Source: Nannobrachium achirus (Eukaryota > Chordata > Actinopteri > Myctophiformes > Myctophidae). Taken from it: DNA of 64,000 bases. Under the pieces are notes generated by a model. It saw only the letters and a program-made list of their open reading frames with translations. It did no database searches and was not told the DNA's origin. The stretch covers positions 40,293,340 through 40,357,339 of the forward strand of contig OY997642.1 in the NCBI GenBank assembly GCA_963921795.1. Direction: 5' to 3'. Shown piece by piece: positions 21,861 through 64,000 of this stretch. The translations under genes and the position numbers were made by a program. The first letter of the stretch is position 1, and each line of letters opens with the position of its first letter.

Positions 21861-24811
<2,951 letters not shown>

Positions 24812-37943: not shown

Positions 37944-40900
37944 ATGGCATTGGCGCTCGAGCAGCTCAGTGATGTCGTCCAGAGATGTGTGAGTCACAAT
38001 AGCCCCTCAGGCAACTAGACCAAGTTCATTAGACCAGGGGTCTTCAACGTTTTCAGGCCAAGGACCCCTTAGTTGAGAGAGAGATGAAGCAGGGACCCCC
38101 ACAACCTGTTCATAGATTCCATATAGTTTCATCGTTTGACAGCACAATCATCAGTGTATTTTGGATTCATTTCAATTTGTGTTTTCAGATATTTAACCAC
38201 TTGAGCCGTCATTACCTAATAAACTTGACCTTTTACTCTGCACTTAGTCTGCTCTTTTTCCCCTCTACACCAAACCTAAATGCCGAAAATAGCTGATCTA
38301 CAAGCTTGTAGATCTGCTATTTTTGGCTAAAGTTCTCAAAATATGGACACTAGGGTTCAAGTGGTTAATATAAAAAGGATTTGAAGATTTGGAGGACCCC
38401 CTGTAGTATCTCTGAGGACCCCCTAGGGGTCCCGGACCCCCTGTTGAAGACCCCTGCATTAGACCATTCTTTAATTGTCACAGAATCCCAGCCTCCCCTT
38501 CTCACTCTGTTATCTATTATCATCCATCCCATTCTCATCACCGTAAACATACTGTAGTCCCCTGCCTAGTGTTTTTAAGACAGAGCATCTCACCCAGTGC
38601 TTGCCCTCTCTTTCACACAGCAAACAGTCGAAAGTGATAACTACACCCCTGAGGATTATGATGTCTTCATGATTGCTGGAAGGACTTGCATAGAGCAGGG
38701 AGACTGTGCTCAGGTCCTTAGTATTGTTGTGGATGACAACAATAAGGTAAGGAAGAGGATTTGTGTTTACCGTACGTACTATTGTCTGCTGACTAATCTT
38801 CATCCAAATTGTTGGTGGAAAAACCCACATGTAATTTTTGTTTTCATGGCATATACTGTATATTTGTTATGACTGCTTATCTGTGTATTTTTTTTTCTGT
38901 GTTATTTTTCCAATATATCTTTGTTCACGTCATGAAACAGTGTAATTAATATGTAGTCCCTTCATTCTTCTCAGGCCATAGTGAGATGTATGGGCTGGAA
39001 CCTACTGCCTCCTCTGATCCAAGTTCTTCTAAAGAAGGAGGACAAGAATCTTCCTCACTGCCTGGCCATTTTCAAACACTTGATCAAGGTCTGCTTCTCA
39101 CTCCCGCATTGAACACATTGACGCCGTATTTAGAATTTTCATTTGAAAACAAATTGGGCTTTGTTATTATTGTTTTTGCATATTACATAGGACTGCTATA
39201 CTTTTGCCAGTTCTGTCCCATTTGTTGCCATTTACATCTGATACATCTGATATGTATTTCTGGGGTTTAAATTAAAATAGCACAAGTCAAAGAAATATAG
39301 TATAGATGTATAGTATAGTGGCAATTCTGGCAAATAGTCCTTAAGTTAAAAGGTGTTTTTGGTGTATTTGGTCAGGTCTGTAGTCCCAAGGAGCTGCTGG
39401 TTGGCTTATTGGAGCAACTGGATGAGGCCCAACCGGACACCATAACAGACACCATTGTTCTCCTATGGAAACCACTACAAGACGGTAAGGAAGATACACT
39501 TTACACATTTTTATACCCATCTACACACATACATCACTATGGGCTACATGGCTTGGAACCTTTTGTTCCCATGTGTACTTACTCTTACTTTCACACACAT
39601 ACATCAACATATAAACACACACTGAAACAGTGAATCCTTTTCTGCACCTTGGTATGGAAGACACAAAATATGAGCTCACTGTCCCAGAAATGACATGTCT
39701 TTTTCACCTCCATCTTTTTGTCTCATTCCTCACATCTACCGCCTGATTTATGCATTGTTGGTGTTGACGTTGCATGCCAAAAATAGCCGCTCCGCAAGCT
39801 CCCAACATGTTACAAACACGAATCATTGTGAACTTGTTGATCGTCTATTTTCGGAACATGCAACAAACTGAGCTTACTGTTTCTACTTGGCTCTACCCCT
39901 AATACTCCTACAACACTCCCTGGATATTTCTCTGTCTCTATGTGTCTCTTCTGTCTCCCTTCCGCTCCCAGTGCTGGGGCGTCTTGGCAGCCGTAAGGCC
40001 TCTTCTCTGGGCATGGTTCTGTCCACCCTGCTGGAGCAGGTTGCCAAGCTGCCGGCCCCCAAGACCAAAGAGCAGGAAACAGATGAGAACTTCTCCCTGT
40101 GCCGCTGCTGCACTGTTCTCCGGAATTTCATCATCCCCCTTGTCCACGAGGCCAGACAGAACATCCTTAAATTACGTAATGGAGAGGAGGATGAGCTGAG
40201 TACAGAACTGACAAAGTTGTAAGTGGGATTTTCTTTGTTCCACAACTCAGGATCGTTCGGTTTATTATAAGTTATTAAATCTATGCCTTTTCTGTCTTTC
40301 TATACTTGAGCTGTATGAAGAGTCTGTGTGAACCACTCTTGGATGTTGTGCTGACAGATGCGGACACCCTGGATGTGTCTCCCATTAGGGACTTTGCTGA
40401 AGAGATATTGGTAGGACATATTAAAGAGCCCAATAAAAAAAGAAAAACATTGTTTGAGTTGTAATACAGCACTTTACAAATAACTGATAAATGCACAGAC
40501 GTGCTACACAATATTTACTAACCAGAATGACAGCATTTGCAGGTGTGTTTGCTGCACTGGAGTTGTGACTGCACTATCCCTTTTTTCTGGTTTGTGGCAA
40601 TGCATGTGTGTGGCTGTGTGTGCGGATGCCTGTTTTCTATAGTTCAGTCTAACACAAATTGGGGAGCCGCTCCATAAGCTGGTGTTCCACCCTGTGCTGA
40701 AGAGGAAAGTGGTACCGGGGTTTCTGGAAGAAGAGGTGCTCTACCCCGAAGAGTCTTTAGCCAACCTGGCTTATCTTCTGTTTGTCAATCACCTTGCTGC
40801 CTTCCCTGCTGTGTTCAGGTAAATTCATCTTATTTTAACCCCAGAGTCTGTAGTGATGTGCTACACCATCTTCAGGCAGTTTTGGAGACACGCCAACTTT

Positions 40901-44225: not shown

Positions 44226-44556
44226 GAAGCATCTGAGTTTGTTTTCAGTTATGTTACTTAAACATATTGATATTATTTACAATATGTATGTGTTCCTTTC
44301 CTTACATTTGAACTTTGGAGGAGATGCCTGTTGTATGTTTATTTGTCTCTATCTCAACTCATAAAGGACTTTTTTGTTCTGTTGATTCACATTTTGTTGG
44401 TTTTCAATCCTTATTAACATGGAAGAATCATAGAAAAGGATTATCGTGTGTAATACTTTAACAACACCATTTGTGAATTCTACATTTCTACTATGCAATG
44501 AGGGATATGATGGGGGAAGCAGAAATTCTGGTGATACTGGTTTGAAGAAAACATGG

Positions 44557-45045
44557 GTGTACTGCAGGGTTCCTCAATTAGTTTTCCCCAAGGGCCGAAT
44601 TATGTCTACGGTACCAAGCCGAGGGCCACACCATTGCAGGGGGCGACGGTGGCGTTCCCGCTACTCCAGCAACAGTTCAGATATCGTCGTTGTCGGGTGA
44701 AAATCTTGTATGTCCAAAAACCGCAAATGCAACTGTTTTGCATTTATCATTTTAAAAATGATTTAAACTAGTGAAAACAGCCGATCTACAAGCACACAAC
44801 GCCTCGCACCCGAGGCGAGGCGTTGTGTGCTTGTAGATCGGCTGTTTTCACTACTTTTGTGCGACGGCCTTGTATGATTTGCGAAAGAACGTACACATTT
44901 GGAGATACGAGATTTCCACCCGACAACGACGATATACTAGTGTTGTTGCTGCTCTTATACCACCATTATTGCTGGGGTTGGTGGGGGCCAGACAGTAGCC
45001 CCCTTGCGGCCCGCGGGCCGCCTATTGGGGAACCCTGGTGTACTG
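44557..45045. mobile_element. hAT element with perfect 38-bp palindrome, exact TSD gtgtactg
   Basis: Body 44565-45037, ends cagggttcctcaatta and, inverted, attggggaaccctg. The octamer gtgtactg is present exactly at 44557-44564 and 45038-45045. Inside, 44770-44807 and 44815-44852 are perfect reverse complements (38 bases each, 7-base loop) and include the recurring core gccgatctacaagc. The ends are flanked by gggccg / cggccc blocks rather than GGACCCC, so it is a different subfamily from the 38035 element. It lies just past the glmn 3' end. Confidence 0.92.
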
Positions 45046-45080
45046 TATGTAAACTAATGACAGTTATCTGTAATACCGGA

Positions 45081-45640
45081 GTAGCTATTTACAGTCCCAG
45101 TGCAGACACTTTTGTGTGTTAAGTGTGAGAGATGGCAGTGACAGATTCTCTTAATCGTTGGTTTTCTAATCGATGAAGAAGAGACTGCGGCTGTACTGGT
45201 GGAGGATGGCGTGCATTTAGCATGAAGTGGTGCTTCAGAACATTGAGCGGGCTGTGCAGGGTAGGTTGTGAGGTGGAGGCAGTGGTGATTGGGGGTCTTG
45301 ATGGTGCCTTATTGCTGTGTGCCTTAACCTTAAGTCCACCAAAGAATACCTGATTGATTTTACTTGGCATACATAATATTCTATACTGTATGTAAAAGGT
45401 TGGGACATGAAACATACCGTACCTGGATGTACAATCGCACTTCTTTATTATAATTCACTGTTTATATAGCAAAAAACAAACATAAAACCTATAACACATA
45501 GTTATAATATGCTTTATAATTAAGCAAAACACATAAAAATATACTGTAGGTATGACTGTCAGAAAGAGTCCTGGAGGATAATTTCGCCCTAAAAAAGATA
45601 AAATTGTAAAAACATTTTTACTAGGGATAATCAGAACAAT
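45081..45640 (-). pseudogene. Duplicated fragment of cdc7 exon 6 and adjacent introns
   Basis: The stretch matches 58567-59133 in the same orientation. The exon part (about 45100-45365) keeps the Pro/Ser/Thr-rich kinase-insert sequence (SRPPITTASTSQP on the minus strand) but has lost roughly 90 bases covering the end of the DFG region and what follows; the reading frame then shifts and the C-terminal part differs from cdc7. Intron sequence on both sides is present (agggataatcagaaca near 45625 and 59119), so this is a DNA-level duplication, not a retrocopy. Not expected to be functional. Confidence 0.85.
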
Positions 45641-46100
45641 TAAAATGAAATGGATAAACAAATGTCATCTATAATGTATTTGAAAATTACCAAAATGGAA
45701 ACAAAACAAAAATATAATAGCTAATGACATGCGAAATATTGTATTTTTTTCTTTTTGCTCCCTCCGTTTTGTTTTTATAATTGTATCACACATTCGACAT
45801 TACAATGTTGTCTGTACTTGTCTGTGAGTAAAGCTTTAACATTTTCTTTTTCATTGTGTAAAGCTTTAATATTTTTGTATTTTCGTTCCAATGGACATCA
45901 GGGACCTCCACATCTGGGAAAACACAGAACTCCATATTTGGGCATGACTGATGACATAGTGACATCATAGTGATGATGTGAGCGTTGAGGGAGCTAATCT
46001 TAAAATCAGACCCCAGATGTTTTGTTTTTGGCTTGGCACTAGTGCATATTTGAGTGAATATTTGTATGACTTTGCATACATAGAAATAAAGTGCAGGAAG

Positions 46101-49100
46101 ATGAGACTGAAGGAGATACAGAGGACAGCCCACCAGGCCTGGAGTCCTGCAACTCACCATCCCATCTACCTGGCATTAGGGACGTCGGCTCACCAGCTTG
46201 ATGCTTCCTTCAACACCACTGCTGCACTTGAGCTATTTGAGGTGGATATTTCTGATCCTTCTCTGGACATGAAGCTCAAAGGATCATTGCCAATCCCAAA
46301 CAGGTTGCACAGTATCATATGGGCCAATTTTGAAATGGGAGCAGATGGTTCTGGAGGAAGACTGGTGGGTGGCAGTGAGAACGGCATGTTAACGGTATAC
46401 AACCCAGAAGCCATAATATCTTCTGGAGTAGAGGCGATTGTGGGACAGTCTGACAAACACACAGGTCCCATCAGAGCACTTGACTTCAACCCCTTTAAGA
46501 GCAATCTCCTTGCATCAGGAGCCAATGATTCAGAAATATACATCTGGGATCTCAACCATTTTAACAACCCAATTATGCCAGGAACAAAGACACAGCCTGC
46601 TGAAGATATCAGTGTTGTGTCCTGGAACAGGCAAGTTCAGCACATCTTGGCCTCCGCTGACCGCAGTGGCAAGACAGTTGTTTGGGACCTGAGGAAGAAC
46701 GAGCCCATCATCAAGATCAGTGACCACAGCAATAGGATGCACTGTTCAGGAATGCTGTGGCATCCTGATGTGGCTACACAGTTGGTGTTGGCCTCTGAAG
46801 ATGACCGTCTGCCGGTGATGCAGATGTGGGATCTGCGCTTTGCCACATCCCCCCTCAAAGTCTTCGAGAACCACACAAGGGGAATTCTGTCCATATCCTG
46901 GAGTCAAGCAGACTCAGAACTCCTTCTCAGTAGTGCTAAAGACAACCGCATCCTCTGCTGGAATCCAAATACTGGGGATGTGATTTATGAACTGCCAACT
47001 TCCAACCAGTGGTGTTTCGATGTTCAGTGGTGCCCCAGGAACCCAGCTCTGCTGTCGGCAGCTTCGTTTGATGGGAGGATCAGTGTATACTCTGTGATGG
47101 GAGGCAGTTTGGATGCTCAGCAGCCAAGTACGGTTGATACGTTACCATCCTCATTAGACTCAATGGACCCCTTTGGGACAGGACAGGTGCTCCATCCCCT
47201 GCAGGTTCCGCAATGTGCAGGGCAGACCACCATTGTTCACCCCCTAAAAAAGCCACCTAAGTGGGTCCGCAGGCCAGTGGGGGCTTCATTTGCTTTCGGT
47301 GGGAAGTTGATCGTGTTTGAGAACCCCAAGCTGGACCCAGCACAGCGCCCTCACCCCGTCCCCAGACGGGTATTTGTTAGCCAGGTGACCACGGAGACCG
47401 AGTTCCTCCAGCGCTCCATGGACCTGCAAGCGACACTGCAGTCGGGGTCCTTCATCAGCTACTGCCAGGCTAAGATTCGAAATGCATCGACAGAGGCCGA
47501 TCTGGACATATGGAAGTTCCTTTTGGTCAAATTTGATAATGAACCCCGCATTAAATTCCTAAAACTTTTGGGTTTCAACAAAGATGAATTGGACAGAAAG
47601 ATTTCAAAATGCCTGGGGAAGAATTTGCAGTCCAACGGACATGAAGTGGATGTTAAAGATTTGTCTGAAAAGATGCAGCAGCTTTCCACAGAGAGGTCTG
47701 ATGAGGCCAGTGCTACAGGTGACATCAGGACATCTGATTCTGCCTCACAGTTGGACTTCTTCAGTAACATCCCAAAGGAGAGTCCCAACTTCCAGATCCC
47801 TGTCTCATCTGATACCGATGGCCTGATCAGCCAGGCTCTGCTGGTGGCCAACTTTGAGGGAGCTGTGGAACTATGTCTGAATGAAAGTCGCTACGCTGAG
47901 GCCATCTTGCTGTCGATCAGCGGGGGAGAGGAGCTTCTGAAGAAGACCCAGCAGAGATATCTGAGCAAGCAGCGGAACAGCATCTCCATGCTTATATCAT
48001 CAGTGGTGACGCAGAACTGGAAACACATCGTGCAGAGCTGTGAGTTGGACAATTGGAAAGAGGCCCTTGCAGCTCTCCTGACCTATGCTAACGAAGAATT
48101 TGCATACCTGTGTGATACTCTGGGAGCACGTTTAGAGGGTGAGGGCACAGAGCAGCGGCGCCTGCATGCGTGTCTTTGTTACATATGCTCTGGGAATGTC
48201 GAGAAGCTGGTGGAGTGCCTTACTCTGCAGAAGGACAGCTCCACCCCCCTCTATCTAGAGGACCTAGTGGAGAAGGTGATGGTCCTGCGCAAATCGATTG
48301 AGTACCTTCACAACATTGAAGTGACAGTACAGAGCCCCATCTTGGTAGAAAAGCTAACTTATTATGCTGGTATACTGGCTGCAGAGGGAAGCCTGGCCGC
48401 TGCCATGAACTACTTGCCTGAGAACTCAGACCAGCCTGGGATCATGATGCTCAAAGACAGGCTGTTCCATGCTCAGGGAGGGGCACCTGTCGGACAGCAG
48501 ACCCCTGTCCACTACAACAATGTCGATGTGTCTCCAGCCCAGCCCACTCCTGTTGCTCAGCCCCCCACACAAGAAGCACCCCCTATGCCATCAGCACCTC
48601 CTATGCCATCAGTATTTACTCCACAATCTGATTCTGCCAACACTGGGCCTGGCCTGCCTCCTTCCTCAAACATGCTCCCCCCTAGTGCACCACACCATGG
48701 CTTACAGCTTCCATACCTCCAACATCCCACAACGAGCCCAGGAGTCCCTCAACAGCCATTCCACCCTCAGCCAGTGGGCGGATCCCCGACTGTCCCTCTG
48801 CCGGATGCTTCTATACCATCCACTAATGTATTAGGACCCTCACTGCAGTCTCCATCTTTCGCCGCCGGGGGCCTGCCCCCCATGCCTAGCCCTGGGGTGC
48901 CACCAATAGACTTCATACCCTCAACATCTTTGCCGTCAAGCCCCATGCCTCCAAACTCCCAGCCTATAGCCTCTGTCCCCATGTACCCTCTGGCAGTGCA
49001 CAACCAGGGCCCCGCACTACCTTCCATAGCAGCTGGTCCATACCCGTCCCTTGGTCCAGGATATCCACACGGAGGACCTGGGTCTTCTGCTGGCAATCCC

Positions 49101-49679
49101 TACCCTGCTCCTGCTGTCCTTCCACCTCCCACAGGAAACTTTCCTTGGCTGAGTTCCCACTGTGATGATCAACAAGGTGGGCCCAGTAAACAGGGGATCG
49201 CTGATAACTACTCCCCACCTGCCCCCATTACGTTCCTCCCAGGAGAGGCTCCTCAACCACATGACCTCACCCAGGTTCCTCCAGGGACCCCTCAGGAGCC
49301 CAATGTACAGCTCCTCCAGCAGCTGCCGGCAGAGATCATAGAGCAGGAGATCCCTGCTGAACACGTGGTTCTCAGAACTACCTTTGACAGCCTTGTGCAG
49401 CGGTGCCAGCTAGCAGCAGCCAATCTACAAACAAAAAGGAAGCTGGATGATGCACCCAAGCGTTTGGGCTATCTATACGACAAGCTGAGAGATCAGTCGC
49501 TCTCACAGCATGTCCTCGGTGGGCTCCATGAAATCAGGCGCTGTGTGGCCAGCCAGAACTACCAGCGGGCTTTGGAGGTCCACACCCAGGTGGTCAGTAG
49601 CAGCAACTTCAGTGAGATCTCTTCCTTCATGCCCATCCTTAAAATAGTCATGACCACCGCCAAAAACCTGGGTGTCTAA
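46101..49679 (+). CDS. sec31b: Intronless SEC31B-type COPII coat protein (retrogene, intact)
   Basis: A single open frame of 1192 residues, co-linear with human SEC31A/B over its whole length. Residues 1-335 are WD40 repeats (SGANDSEIYIWDLN, WNRQVQHILAS, VVWDLRKNEP, SDHSNRMHCSG, SEDDRLPVMQMWDLRF). KPPKWVRRPVGASFAFGGKL follows, the blade that completes SEC13. About 540-790 is the helical ACE1-like region (GLISQALLVANFEGAVELCL), 800-1060 is proline-rich, and the last 120 residues (RTTFDSLVQRC, TKRKLDDA, LKIVMTTAKNLGV) are the conserved end. KFLKLLGFNKDEL, GQQ and NGMLTVYN favour SEC31B over A. SEC31 genes normally have over 20 coding exons, so this is a processed copy. ATG 46101 matches the family start; an in-frame ATG at 46017 would add 28 unrelated residues. 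AATAAA at 49892-49897. With SEC13 it forms the outer COPII cage at ER exit sites. Confidence 0.93.
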   Translation: MRLKEIQRTAHQAWSPATHHPIYLALGTSAHQLDASFNTTAALELFEVDISDPSLDMKLKGSLPIPNRLHSIIWANFEMGADGSGGRLVGGSENGMLTVYNPEAIISSGVEAIVGQSDKHTGPIRALDFNPFKSNLLASGANDSEIYIWDLNHFNNPIMPGTKTQPAEDISVVSWNRQVQHILASADRSGKTVVWDLRKNEPIIKISDHSNRMHCSGMLWHPDVATQLVLASEDDRLPVMQMWDLRFATSPLKVFENHTRGILSISWSQADSELLLSSAKDNRILCWNPNTGDVIYELPTSNQWCFDVQWCPRNPALLSAASFDGRISVYSVMGGSLDAQQPSTVDTLPSSLDSMDPFGTGQVLHPLQVPQCAGQTTIVHPLKKPPKWVRRPVGASFAFGGKLIVFENPKLDPAQRPHPVPRRVFVSQVTTETEFLQRSMDLQATLQSGSFISYCQAKIRNASTEADLDIWKFLLVKFDNEPRIKFLKLLGFNKDELDRKISKCLGKNLQSNGHEVDVKDLSEKMQQLSTERSDEASATGDIRTSDSASQLDFFSNIPKESPNFQIPVSSDTDGLISQALLVANFEGAVELCLNESRYAEAILLSISGGEELLKKTQQRYLSKQRNSISMLISSVVTQNWKHIVQSCELDNWKEALAALLTYANEEFAYLCDTLGARLEGEGTEQRRLHACLCYICSGNVEKLVECLTLQKDSSTPLYLEDLVEKVMVLRKSIEYLHNIEVTVQSPILVEKLTYYAGILAAEGSLAAAMNYLPENSDQPGIMMLKDRLFHAQGGAPVGQQTPVHYNNVDVSPAQPTPVAQPPTQEAPPMPSAPPMPSVFTPQSDSANTGPGLPPSSNMLPPSAPHHGLQLPYLQHPTTSPGVPQQPFHPQPVGGSPTVPLPDASIPSTNVLGPSLQSPSFAAGGLPPMPSPGVPPIDFIPSTSLPSSPMPPNSQPIASVPMYPLAVHNQGPALPSIAAGPYPSLGPGYPHGGPGSSAGNPYPAPAVLPPPTGNFPWLSSHCDDQQGGPSKQGIADNYSPPAPITFLPGEAPQPHDLTQVPPGTPQEPNVQLLQQLPAEIIEQEIPAEHVVLRTTFDSLVQRCQLAAANLQTKRKLDDAPKRLGYLYDKLRDQSLSQHVLGGLHEIRRCVASQNYQRALEVHTQVVSSSNFSEISSFMPILKIVMTTAKNLGV

Positions 49680-51332
49680 ACAGTGATTTATATTTGGTCA
49701 TACGATGGTATTGCTTGCGCACACGCACGCACGCACACAAACATTTAAAATGCAATAATGATATGTAATCTACACACTCTTGTTTTTAGCCTATTTTATT
49801 TTACCAAGACATCTGGAATCTCCTTTACCTGGCCATAGCAGCCACATAGGAATAGAACACAGATTGTTACACATTAAATAATACATTCTACAATAAACAT
49901 TAAAGAAAGCTGATCAAACATTGTGGACTCCTTCACCAGATCTTTCTGATGCCCTTAAAATGCATCAATGAATATGATGTCTTTAGATTTTTTGTCTGTC
50001 TTAGTATTTTGTATTTAATTGTACCATTGTGGTTTTCAGAATGTTATTCAATGGTGACATTGACTTAATACATACATTTGTCTCTTAGCACATTCAAGTG
50101 AGTGTTTTCACGTGGTTTAGAGGAACTTTGCATTGTATTGATGTTCCATTCTGTATATATGTGGGTTCCTTACATTTTGAAAGAGATGGTTTTCTCTTCC
50201 CAACAAACTCAAACGTTTGTCATTCTGTTGAAACTGGGCTCTTACAATTCCATGGATGGCGCAACTAAAAACACAAATAGTTTTAAATCACAGTAGGTAC
50301 ACGCAAGGCACTGCTACCATTTCACAGTGGCACTTCTTAACAGCCCATCATTACTGTTGTTTGTGATGTCAGAATTAAATAACTCATTCTGGTTCATTGG
50401 AATTTTATTTAAAAAAGTGTTTTTTACAAACATGGGTAAACTCTAATGCACAATCTACACATGGTTATTGACAGTGTTGAGTCCAGCTCATGTGTCATCT
50501 CCCTCTCTCCAATGTATACTCAATTAGACTAAACATCCATCACATGCCATACGTTTCTAAACAGTCACACCCTGTATTCTGAGATGAGATTAAATAAACG
50601 CTTAAAATGTTTATAACAGTCAGTGGGTAATTTGGTCACATTACAAAGGGAGCTAGGTCAGGATAAAACTGAACATAAAAAAAAGACAATAATTTAAAAG
50701 TTTCTCTCGACGTGGATATGCAAACTTCCATTTCGATCCACCCTCCAAGCTGCATTGTAGGTCTATAAACAATGGTGGGGCGTATTCTGCTGGGAACCCT
50801 GTTTTTGTGTGCCTGCTTGAAAACACCTGCAGCAAGGTTGCCATTTGAGAGGGCCAATAGAGGAACAGTGTTAGCAAGAACATTATCAAATGTACCCCCT
50901 TTGTCCACTTACTCATTATACAGTATCTGCTTGTTAAATTCAAACAGTTACCTGAGATATTTAACTTGGAGTTGAAGGTTTAAAGGGATAGTTCACCCCC
51001 ACACCCACAAAATATATTGATTACTCACCCCATGGAGACTTGGAGTCATGGATACGTTTTGTTTTTGACACATTCCTAATTCCCAAACCCATCATTTGAG
51101 GAGGCCCTTTGTGTCTCCATGGGGAACAAAGGAGACTATTTGTGTTTCCATAGGGAACCACTGCTGGTCATCAAATTATTGGCTTAGGAATGTGACAAAA
51201 ACAAATAAATATCCACAAATTCAAGTCTCCAATCTACCATGGGGAGAGTAATCGATAGGAAAAAACTTATTTTTGGGTGAACAATCCATTTAAGGATAGG
51301 TCTTTGAACTGTGGGTGCTGCAGGCTGAAGGA
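49680..51332. other. sec31b 3' UTR and convergent gap to cdc7
   Basis: AATAAA motifs at 49892-49897 and about 50593-50598 could end the sec31b transcript. A complement AATAAA near 50405 might serve cdc7. The MITE at 50980-51293 lies at the cdc7 side. No further gene seen; open frames here are short and without similarity known to me. Confidence 0.65.
50980..51293. mobile_element. MITE with ttaaagggatagttcaccc ends
   Basis: Left end ttaaagggatagttcaccc and right end gggtgaacaatccatttaa are inverted. The inside contains catggagac and ctccatgggg lines, inverted in part. This end sequence is common in fish genomes. It ends 40 bases from the cdc7 stop codon. Confidence 0.8.
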
Positions 51333-61471
<10,139 letters not shown>

Positions 61472-63188
61472 GCTGAGAGATATGTATCTAAAAAGAAAAT
61501 TAAATCGAAATGCTCATAGTTGATGCTGCTTGTCCATCATCAACGCAGCCCATACATTATACCAGTAAGGCTGCCAACACTGATTCCCCTTTCCATGATT
61601 ACTGTGCAGTTGACTTTTACAACTTTCTGACCCTTTATATTTCCCCAAAAGATGACCTAGCCTTGGATCAAGACTATCATAGATGTATTTTATCGATTTG
61701 ACATTTGCATATCAAAAATACATATAGGCTGGTATAGTCTTGATTCAAGGCTAATACTGACCTATTGGTTGATTGAATACTTTATTAGTTTGCAATTTGC
61801 ATATGAAAAAGTACAGGACAGTATGCATAGTACTGTGTCCTATCCGTCTGTAATCAATGTTGAGATTATATACATATAAAAGGGTTCCTGTGTAAATAAG
61901 CCGAAAAGCTTACTAGGATCTCCTTTTACTGTTGACCCTAGGCTGTACCAATGAATTGTACTGTTATGAAACTGTACATTTTCCTATGCAACATTCTATT
62001 AAATAAACGTTTCAATCAAACAACAACAAAAAAGTACAGTTCACTGATACAATGTCAACTAAAAGAATAAAGACTACAACAAGAAAGCTGTTAGGCTTGT
62101 TTGAATTGGGGTACTTTGAACTCAATAATTCATAAAACACCTACAGTAATGAGTAAGGAACAAAAGAAAAAACCGTTAGCGAGTTTATTTTATATATACA
62201 CACACAGCTAGTAGTTGTTTATGCCTTTTCAATAGCAGAGCTAAAAAATAAAATAAAAACTAGCAGCAATAAAAGCTAGTTAAGATAGACAACCTCGTCT
62301 GGGCGCAAACAAATAAACTTACCCCTGGCCTGTCTTTGATCGTAAAGTTTAACAGTTTCTCAGATGGACACTTCGTAAAAGTGCATGACACAAAGTAAAA
62401 AAATATACAAGTAAAAATATCTCTAGGAGAGGTTTATCTCCACTGAAGACGTGTCTTTCAGTAAAAAGAGTAAACAACAAACTCCCCGCTAAAAGTGACG
62501 TCAGAGACAAAAAGGGGTTACTTATCATTTCCGGCTGAATGTACATTATGAAGCCAAGTGTAATGCTGCCCTCTACCGGCAAGGGGTTACTCTTCGCTGT
62601 TTTACTTTAATCCTACACTTTTGACCAGTTGACAGGATAGAAGACGATTTCACAAAAATAGGTTGAAAATGTATCATCTACCTCTTACTTTTATCAGATG
62701 TCTAGACTGGAAAATAATGAAGACCCCTTTATTCTTCTGTCCACTCCTTTTTTGCCACTGGAGCTGTAGTTTTTCTTTGCAAATACTAAAACATTCTCAT
62801 TTTCCCCACTTCAGATCAAATTTCTTTCATCATAGATTCCTTGGCCAATCTGTCAAGAATGTAATTTGCCTCAATCCCTGAGCACCCAGGTACCCACAAA
62901 AGCCCCACATGACATCAACTATTTTCTGTAGAGTAGTGCTTATGCGTATAATGAGTATAAAGTGAGCATAACACAATCTTCATTATCTTTGAATCATCAA
63001 CTTTAATTCTATAAAATAAACAGGTTTCATTACACCTTTAGAGAAAACCAGTGAAACTTCATTAGTTTACATTCTGTTCAACTATTCATATAGGCCTAAT
63101 AAACAAACAAGACCGTTACACAAAAATAGTGAACAAAAAACATGCTACATTATGACAAATCCTCCATGTCAGAATCAGATAAGCTTTT
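61472..63188. other. cdc7 5' region and gap to the next gene
   Basis: On the minus strand a donor ccaggg|gtaagt at 62323/62322 suggests a non-coding cdc7 first exon of about 62323-62470, placing the promoter near 62450-62580. The 5' UTR intron (61472-62322) is AT-rich with no gene. From 62600 to 63188 lies sequence without features apart from an ATTAAA complement at 63002-63007 that may end the neighbouring minus-strand gene. Confidence 0.55.
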
Positions 63189-63640
63189 CTAAAATATCCC
63201 ATCAAATATCCCCAGGAAAGCCTCCTCTTCTTTGCTGTTGCTGTCAGTCTGTAACCTGAAAAGACAGGTGGAATGCAAAAGCGTAATAAGACATTCATAT
63301 AAAATTGTGCTGGATATTACTTTAAAAAATATATATCTGTAGCTTCAAATTACAACATGGAATTGTAAGTACAATGCTAATGTCTTCTACCTGCTTATGC
63401 CAGATGAACTCTGTGTGGTTTGGCCACTGTTTGAGAAGAAATCAAATCCTTTAGCCTGTGGGGTCCTTCTTGTCACATTTTGGACTGGAACTGATTCTGG
63501 TGCCTTGATTGGGAACTCTGGACTCTGCACTATGATCTGTGCCTGCAAAAGGAGACAAAAGACATGTGACACATACTTTCTAAGTGTGATACTGTATATA
63601 AAACATGCGCACACATGCACAAATCCACCCACCCGCCCAC

Positions 63641-63706
<66 letters not shown>

Positions 63707-63813
63707 TGTTATCCAGCTGGTCCCAGGGACGAGTCAGCCTTTTCTGTGGTCTGATTGTGAGGGAGGGGGTTCCTGATCCTCTGATGTCAGGAGTGACAGG
63801 TGGTGAGATTAAC
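63189..63813 (-). CDS. Unidentified gene, last three coding exons (partial)
   Basis: Complement of 63705-63813, 63391-63542 and 63189-63255 (stop 63189-63191). The junctions are GT-AG and keep one frame (phase 1 entry, then 0 and 2), giving 109 residues: ISPPVTPDIRGSGTPSL, TIRPQKRLTRPWDQLDNK, then QSPEFPIKAPESVPVQNV, KGFDFFSNSG, and a short acidic-hydrophobic end EEEAFLGIFDGIF. The sequence is Ser/Thr/Pro-rich and looks unstructured; I do not recognise the family. In human the neighbours of CDC7 are HFM1 and TGFBR3; HFM1 is possible but unsupported, and its human orientation relative to CDC7 differs. The first donor shown opens directly into a (TG)n tract. Confidence 0.6.
63646..63704. repeat. 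(CA)n microsatellite starting at a splice donor
   Basis: Read on the minus strand it is (GT)n; its first GT is the 5' splice site of the exon ending at 63705. Confidence 0.96.
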
Positions 63814-64000
63814 CTAAAACAATTATAAATGTCATGACATCAAACCTCTGTTAAAACTTTTGGGAAATCCCTTTTACTTTGACCTGCTTGTAGGGTCTAA
63901 GGTGGTTTTTACACGAGGACGAATTCCCTTGTGACCGATTTTTACTTTTACAGTTTTTACTAGTGATTCGGCCATTTTTACACACAGAGACGCGTTTTCA

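Follow-up and report, generated by a model that had tools for sequence, protein, structure and literature searches.

An intact, intronless sec31 frame between glmn and cdc7 in Nannobrachium achirus, probably a functional retrogene

The stretch of Nannobrachium achirus DNA analysed here (64,000 nucleotides of contig OY997642.1, hereafter the window) carries at 46101–49679 on the plus strand an intact, single-exon Sec31 coding frame. It translates without a break through 1192 codons to the only stop, the terminal one, and contains no N; this bears out the claim of an earlier note on this DNA that the whole of SEC31 is encoded in a single 3.6 kb frame without stop or frameshift. The other five frames over the same positions contain 33 to 68 stops apiece. 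In 200 first-order Markov sequences with the make-up and length of 46101–49679, no frame of the six stayed free of stops for more than 247 codons, and in 50 Markov sequences modelled on the whole window the maximum was 220 codons; these maxima rule out a chance origin of the frame. A disabled sec31 pseudogene is likewise ruled out, as the frame has neither a stop nor a break. The frame stays open in the 5' direction as far as 45963 and includes an extra in-frame ATG at 46017, but the alignment with the Sec31A structure begins at the ATG at 46101 and not at the upstream one.

The encoded protein has the domain order of Sec31 (all coordinates on the plus strand). The N-terminal WD40 β-propeller, residues 1–336 (46101–47108), aligns end to end with Sec31 and is identical to PDB 7sul_A (Sec31A) at 233 of 336 residues, with one single-residue gap. 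The alignment with yeast Sec31 extends to residue 405, and a second, weaker stretch covers residues 528–948, its end being of low complexity. Residues 376–405 (47226–47315) align with yeast Sec31 chains and presumably form the counterpart of the Sec13-docking segment of yeast Sec31. An α-solenoid at residues 576–772 (47826–48416) is recognised by Pfam as PF12931 (E 4.7e-8, 33.6 bits against a cut-off of 22). It is followed by a proline-rich stretch, residues 801–1083 (48501–49349), for which no Pfam family was found; proline makes up 25% of residues 801–1090, and the frame contains a single PPP motif, at residue 1008 (49122–49130), and a single PPAP, at residue 1039. The C-terminal stretch, residues 1084–1192 (49350–49676), gave only sub-threshold Pfam matches, namely Prp18 (E 0.0011), myomixer (0.0068), SRA1 (0.026) and three weaker ones. 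The SRA1 match scores 14.7 bits, where the cut-off is 23.3, and is weaker than that to Prp18; a search of solved structures with residues 801–1192 at E up to 10 returned a single unrelated match (E 0.063) outside the SRA1-like domain. The SRA1-like C-terminal domain stays a candidate, though a likely one. Judged from these alignments, the structured parts of Sec31 are all in place. Scans for relatives yielded one pattern match in viral contigs and 11 in prokaryote genomes, none of them confirmed, as expected for a vertebrate gene.

Within the proline-rich stretch, Trp1016 (49146–49148) is the candidate tryptophan of the active fragment. It is the sole tryptophan within residues 801–1090, and the local letters read FPWLSS, with leucine after the tryptophan, exactly as the earlier note had reported. 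The SEC31A motif at this point is GWND, in which asparagine follows. In yeast, W922 and N923 of Sec31 reach into the Sar1–Sec23 active site (PMC7594496; papers are cited by PMC number). According to the same source, shortened yeast Sec31 constructs did require the WN pair or the PPP motifs, whereas in full-length Sec31 deletion of the entire active fragment and/or substitution of all PPP motifs caused no growth defect. By analogy, leucine in place of asparagine may lower GTPase stimulation without necessarily crippling the protein; the full-length yeast data make a strong functional loss doubtful.

The frame lies between glmn (plus strand) and cdc7 (minus strand), at the 3' ends of these converging genes. 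Further upstream, a FAM69-type kinase exon occupies 5.4–6.2 kb (PF12260, E 9.2e-62) and rpap2 lies on the minus strand at 33.6–35.0 kb (E 1.7e-23 against an RPAP2 chain). The glmn gene was recognised from three stretches on the plus strand at 39.3–43.0 kb (PF08568), one of which exceeds the cut-off and which follow the profile in the correct order; two cdc7 exons lie on the minus strand at 51.3–51.8 and 58.6–59.0 kb (E 2.7e-21 and 1.8e-6 against CDC7 chains). These assignments come from a non-exhaustive scan of 10 stretches of the window, three of them scanned twice. With E values up to 0.1 allowed, five of the 10 had no match in Pfam, and the structure search put a name to two of these, rpap2 and cdc7 at 58.6 kb. 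The other three (22858–23346, 38950–39267 and 45122–45454) received no name from either search, the last of them falling within the cdc7 duplicate described below.

Published gene orders of several fish place sec31b elsewhere. The corresponding cattle block runs MTF2, DIPK1A, RPL5, EVI5, GFI1, RPAP2, GLMN and, after GLMN, C3H1orf146, BTBD8, EPHX4, BRDT, TGFBR3 and CDC7; in the part of PMC11331311 available, this MTF2–CDC7 block includes no named SEC31, some of its entries being unnamed and small RNAs being present. Mandarin fish and some other fish have a scd–sec31b–ndufb8 cluster (PMC11431013), and Synorth lists SEC31B and NDUFB8 with pax2b in the examined fish except zebrafish (PMC2745767). 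Relative to these published cattle and fish orders the site in N. achirus is new, and neither scd nor ndufb8 was recognised among the 10 scanned stretches.

The 5' flank of the frame is formed by a decayed duplicate (45041–45701) of the cdc7 sequence at 58544–59203, which comprises an exon and the intron next to it. The duplicate has the same orientation and 64% identity over 703 columns. When aligned with gaps, the exon side matches at 230 of 322 ungapped positions, with 33 gap columns, and the intron side at 155 of 252, with 31; the best part is identical at 189 of 231 positions, and part of the exon has been lost. This resemblance indicates that the region underwent a partial duplication of cdc7, of which the sec31 upstream flank is partly made. 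Insertion of sec31 into an intron of the duplicated cdc7 was considered, given that the 5' flank matches cdc7, but an empty site is not demonstrable; the 3' flank (49680–51300) gave no match to 51350–64000 at E up to 1. Abutting the duplicate, 44560–45040 appears transposon-like by eye, with roughly inverted ends, and holds a 93-base inverted repeat at 44765–44857. Elsewhere in the window, a large inverted repeat lies between the two cdc7 exons (51855–53301 and 53722–55384; 95% identical along 840 columns and 78% along 595 more), and a direct repeat at 1211–1655 and 38036–38457 (86% over 448 columns) is probably a dispersed element.

No CpG island adjoins the ATG at 46101: over 45251–46250 the observed/expected CpG ratio is 0.28–0.51 and the GC content 0.31–0.41. 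The ratio rises to 0.89–0.92 at 44501–45250, about 1 kb upstream of the ATG, within the transposon-like stretch and the cdc7 duplicate. A spliced 5' untranslated exon ending just before the ATG (CAG/GAAG) was rejected as weak, with 30% pyrimidine in the preceding 20 bases. On the 3' side, a candidate polyadenylation signal, AATAAA, is found on the plus strand at 49892–49897, 213 bases past the stop.

The sec31 copy lacks introns; for comparison, zebrafish sec31a has at least 21 (PMC11463966). Given these, retroposition, the origin put forward in the earlier note, best explains a whole frame without introns in a location foreign to sec31b. Physical marks of the event did not emerge. No poly(A) tail is present, the best A-rich 20-mer in the 1.65 kb past the stop having 15 A of 20, a count that 43% of 500 background draws attained as well. 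Nor is a target-site duplication clear: the longest exact word common to the flanks 45601–46100 and 49680–50700 has 10 bases, and shuffles gave a mean of 10.0 and a maximum of 15. An imperfect 15-base pair at 45431 and 50324 (87%) brackets sec31 and is taken as chance because a third copy of the same family lies inside the frame. Tails and target-site duplications are often lost from old retrocopies; their absence lowers the retrogene claim without excluding it. What stands of the earlier proposal is upheld by the location and the zebrafish introns, and the missing marks weigh on the other side. The same lack of marks favours another history, in which sec31 was moved here by rearrangement and then lost its introns in place through recombination with its own cDNA; the broken synteny of sec31b/ndufb8 with pax2b in zebrafish (PMC2745767) indicates that the region rearranges. 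Against it, neither scd nor ndufb8 turned up in the scan of 10 stretches, which was not exhaustive. Loss of every intron at once is, moreover, a rare event. We hold in-place loss to be quite improbable, and a retroposed copy at a new site fits better.

The earlier note also read the intact frame as implying selection. Selection on the copy is plausible, but by itself the lack of a stop rules out no more than neutral drift past about 0.024 substitutions per site. At that divergence, which takes about 5.8 Myr if the rate is the zebrafish one of 4.13e-9 (PMC3091775), the chance of having no stop has fallen to 5%, counting one-step stop mutations. Among simulated neutral copies, the fraction without a stop was 0.33 at 0.01, 0.105 at 0.02 and 0.0125 at 0.03 substitutions per site. 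The first of these values would suit a recent retrocopy that is still open because too little time has elapsed for decay. Such a copy should, however, display a tail and a target-site duplication, of which none is clear, and 103 of the 336 propeller residues here are not those of Sec31A, though most of these differences may predate the copying. A recent origin is accordingly very improbable in our estimate, and an old copy under selection is favoured on indirect grounds, since one young enough to stay open by drift should still show its tail. The choice of parent is a separate matter. Descent from sec31a, which would leave the retrogene reading otherwise unchanged, could draw on the 69% identity in the propeller, a comparison with Sec31A alone, as no Sec31B was among the 60 structure matches listed of 429. 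On the other hand, we take the ALG-2 site to have the form PGF, and PGF is absent from the proline-rich stretch (none after residue 740). Rat Sec31B is not conserved at the ALG-2 site, unlike Sec31A (PMC10750190), which is a weak indication against a sec31a parent. The SEC31A/SEC31B split itself is older than the teleost/tetrapod split in a published tree (PMC3112091). From the sequence, the parent mRNA was more likely sec31b, a sec31a parent being rather unlikely; the name SEC31B is consistent with the frame, though the evidence for it is weak.

Taken together, 46101–49679 is probably a functional sec31 retrogene, a member of a known family produced by a known kind of event. An already spliced sec31 mRNA, more likely that of sec31b, would have been copied into DNA by reverse transcription and integrated between glmn and cdc7, the insertion marks later eroding as the frame was maintained. 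The intact frame, the domains and the site are direct observations; the mRNA origin, selection, expression and function are inferences. The protein would pair with Sec13, its propeller and solenoid building the edges of the cage, and its proline-rich stretch would contact Sec23–Sar1. Transcription could start from the copy's own AT-rich 5' flank or result from read-through of glmn on the same strand. If the copy is both expressed and selected, a core subunit of the vesicle coat is supplied by a retrogene, and its Trp–Leu site offers a variant of the Sec31 active fragment that arose in nature. If not, the copy is unremarkable and matters chiefly to annotators, who could mistake 46101–49679 for the orthologous sec31b. 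The earlier note had raised replacement of the parent, or a tissue-specific role, as possibilities. A bolder reading, in which the copy has taken over from the intron-containing sec31b in this lineage and yields a coat with an altered Sar1–Sec23 contact (Trp–Leu in place of Trp–Asn), few PPP motifs and slower GTP turnover, seems to us distinctly unlikely; if true, an intronless gene would be the sole source of one of the outer coat's two Sec31 proteins.

Several studies give context for Sec31B. Its depletion in rat cells cut transport by 15% (PMC10750190), zebrafish sec31b is reported to be abundant in early embryos at the level of expression (PMC11463966, citing Niu 2012), and a proteome lists Sec31b of medaka (PMC8217707). 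Searches of the literature on sec31b retrogenes, intronless sec31 in fish, teleost sec31b and the glmn–cdc7 region listed no account of an intronless sec31b. Such an account is likewise lacking from the available portions of PMC11431013, PMC2745767, PMC5318412, PMC8217707 and PMC3112091, and no word starting with "sec31" occurs in the main texts of PMC8207432 and PMC3091775.

Compared with known systems, the window copy shares with SEC31A and SEC31B of the COPII outer coat the propeller, the Sec13-docking segment, the solenoid and a proline-rich stretch with one tryptophan; it differs in having no introns, in its site between glmn and cdc7 and in the leucine after the tryptophan. Whereas yeast Sec31 has six PPP motifs and one PPAP (PMC7594496), the window copy has one of each. 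Intact retrogenes are common in zebrafish, where 440 of 652 retrocopies were intact according to the available part of one survey (PMC3091775). With such fish retrogenes the copy has in common that it is intact and intronless, and it stands apart from them in its long frame of 1192 residues and in encoding a core coat subunit.
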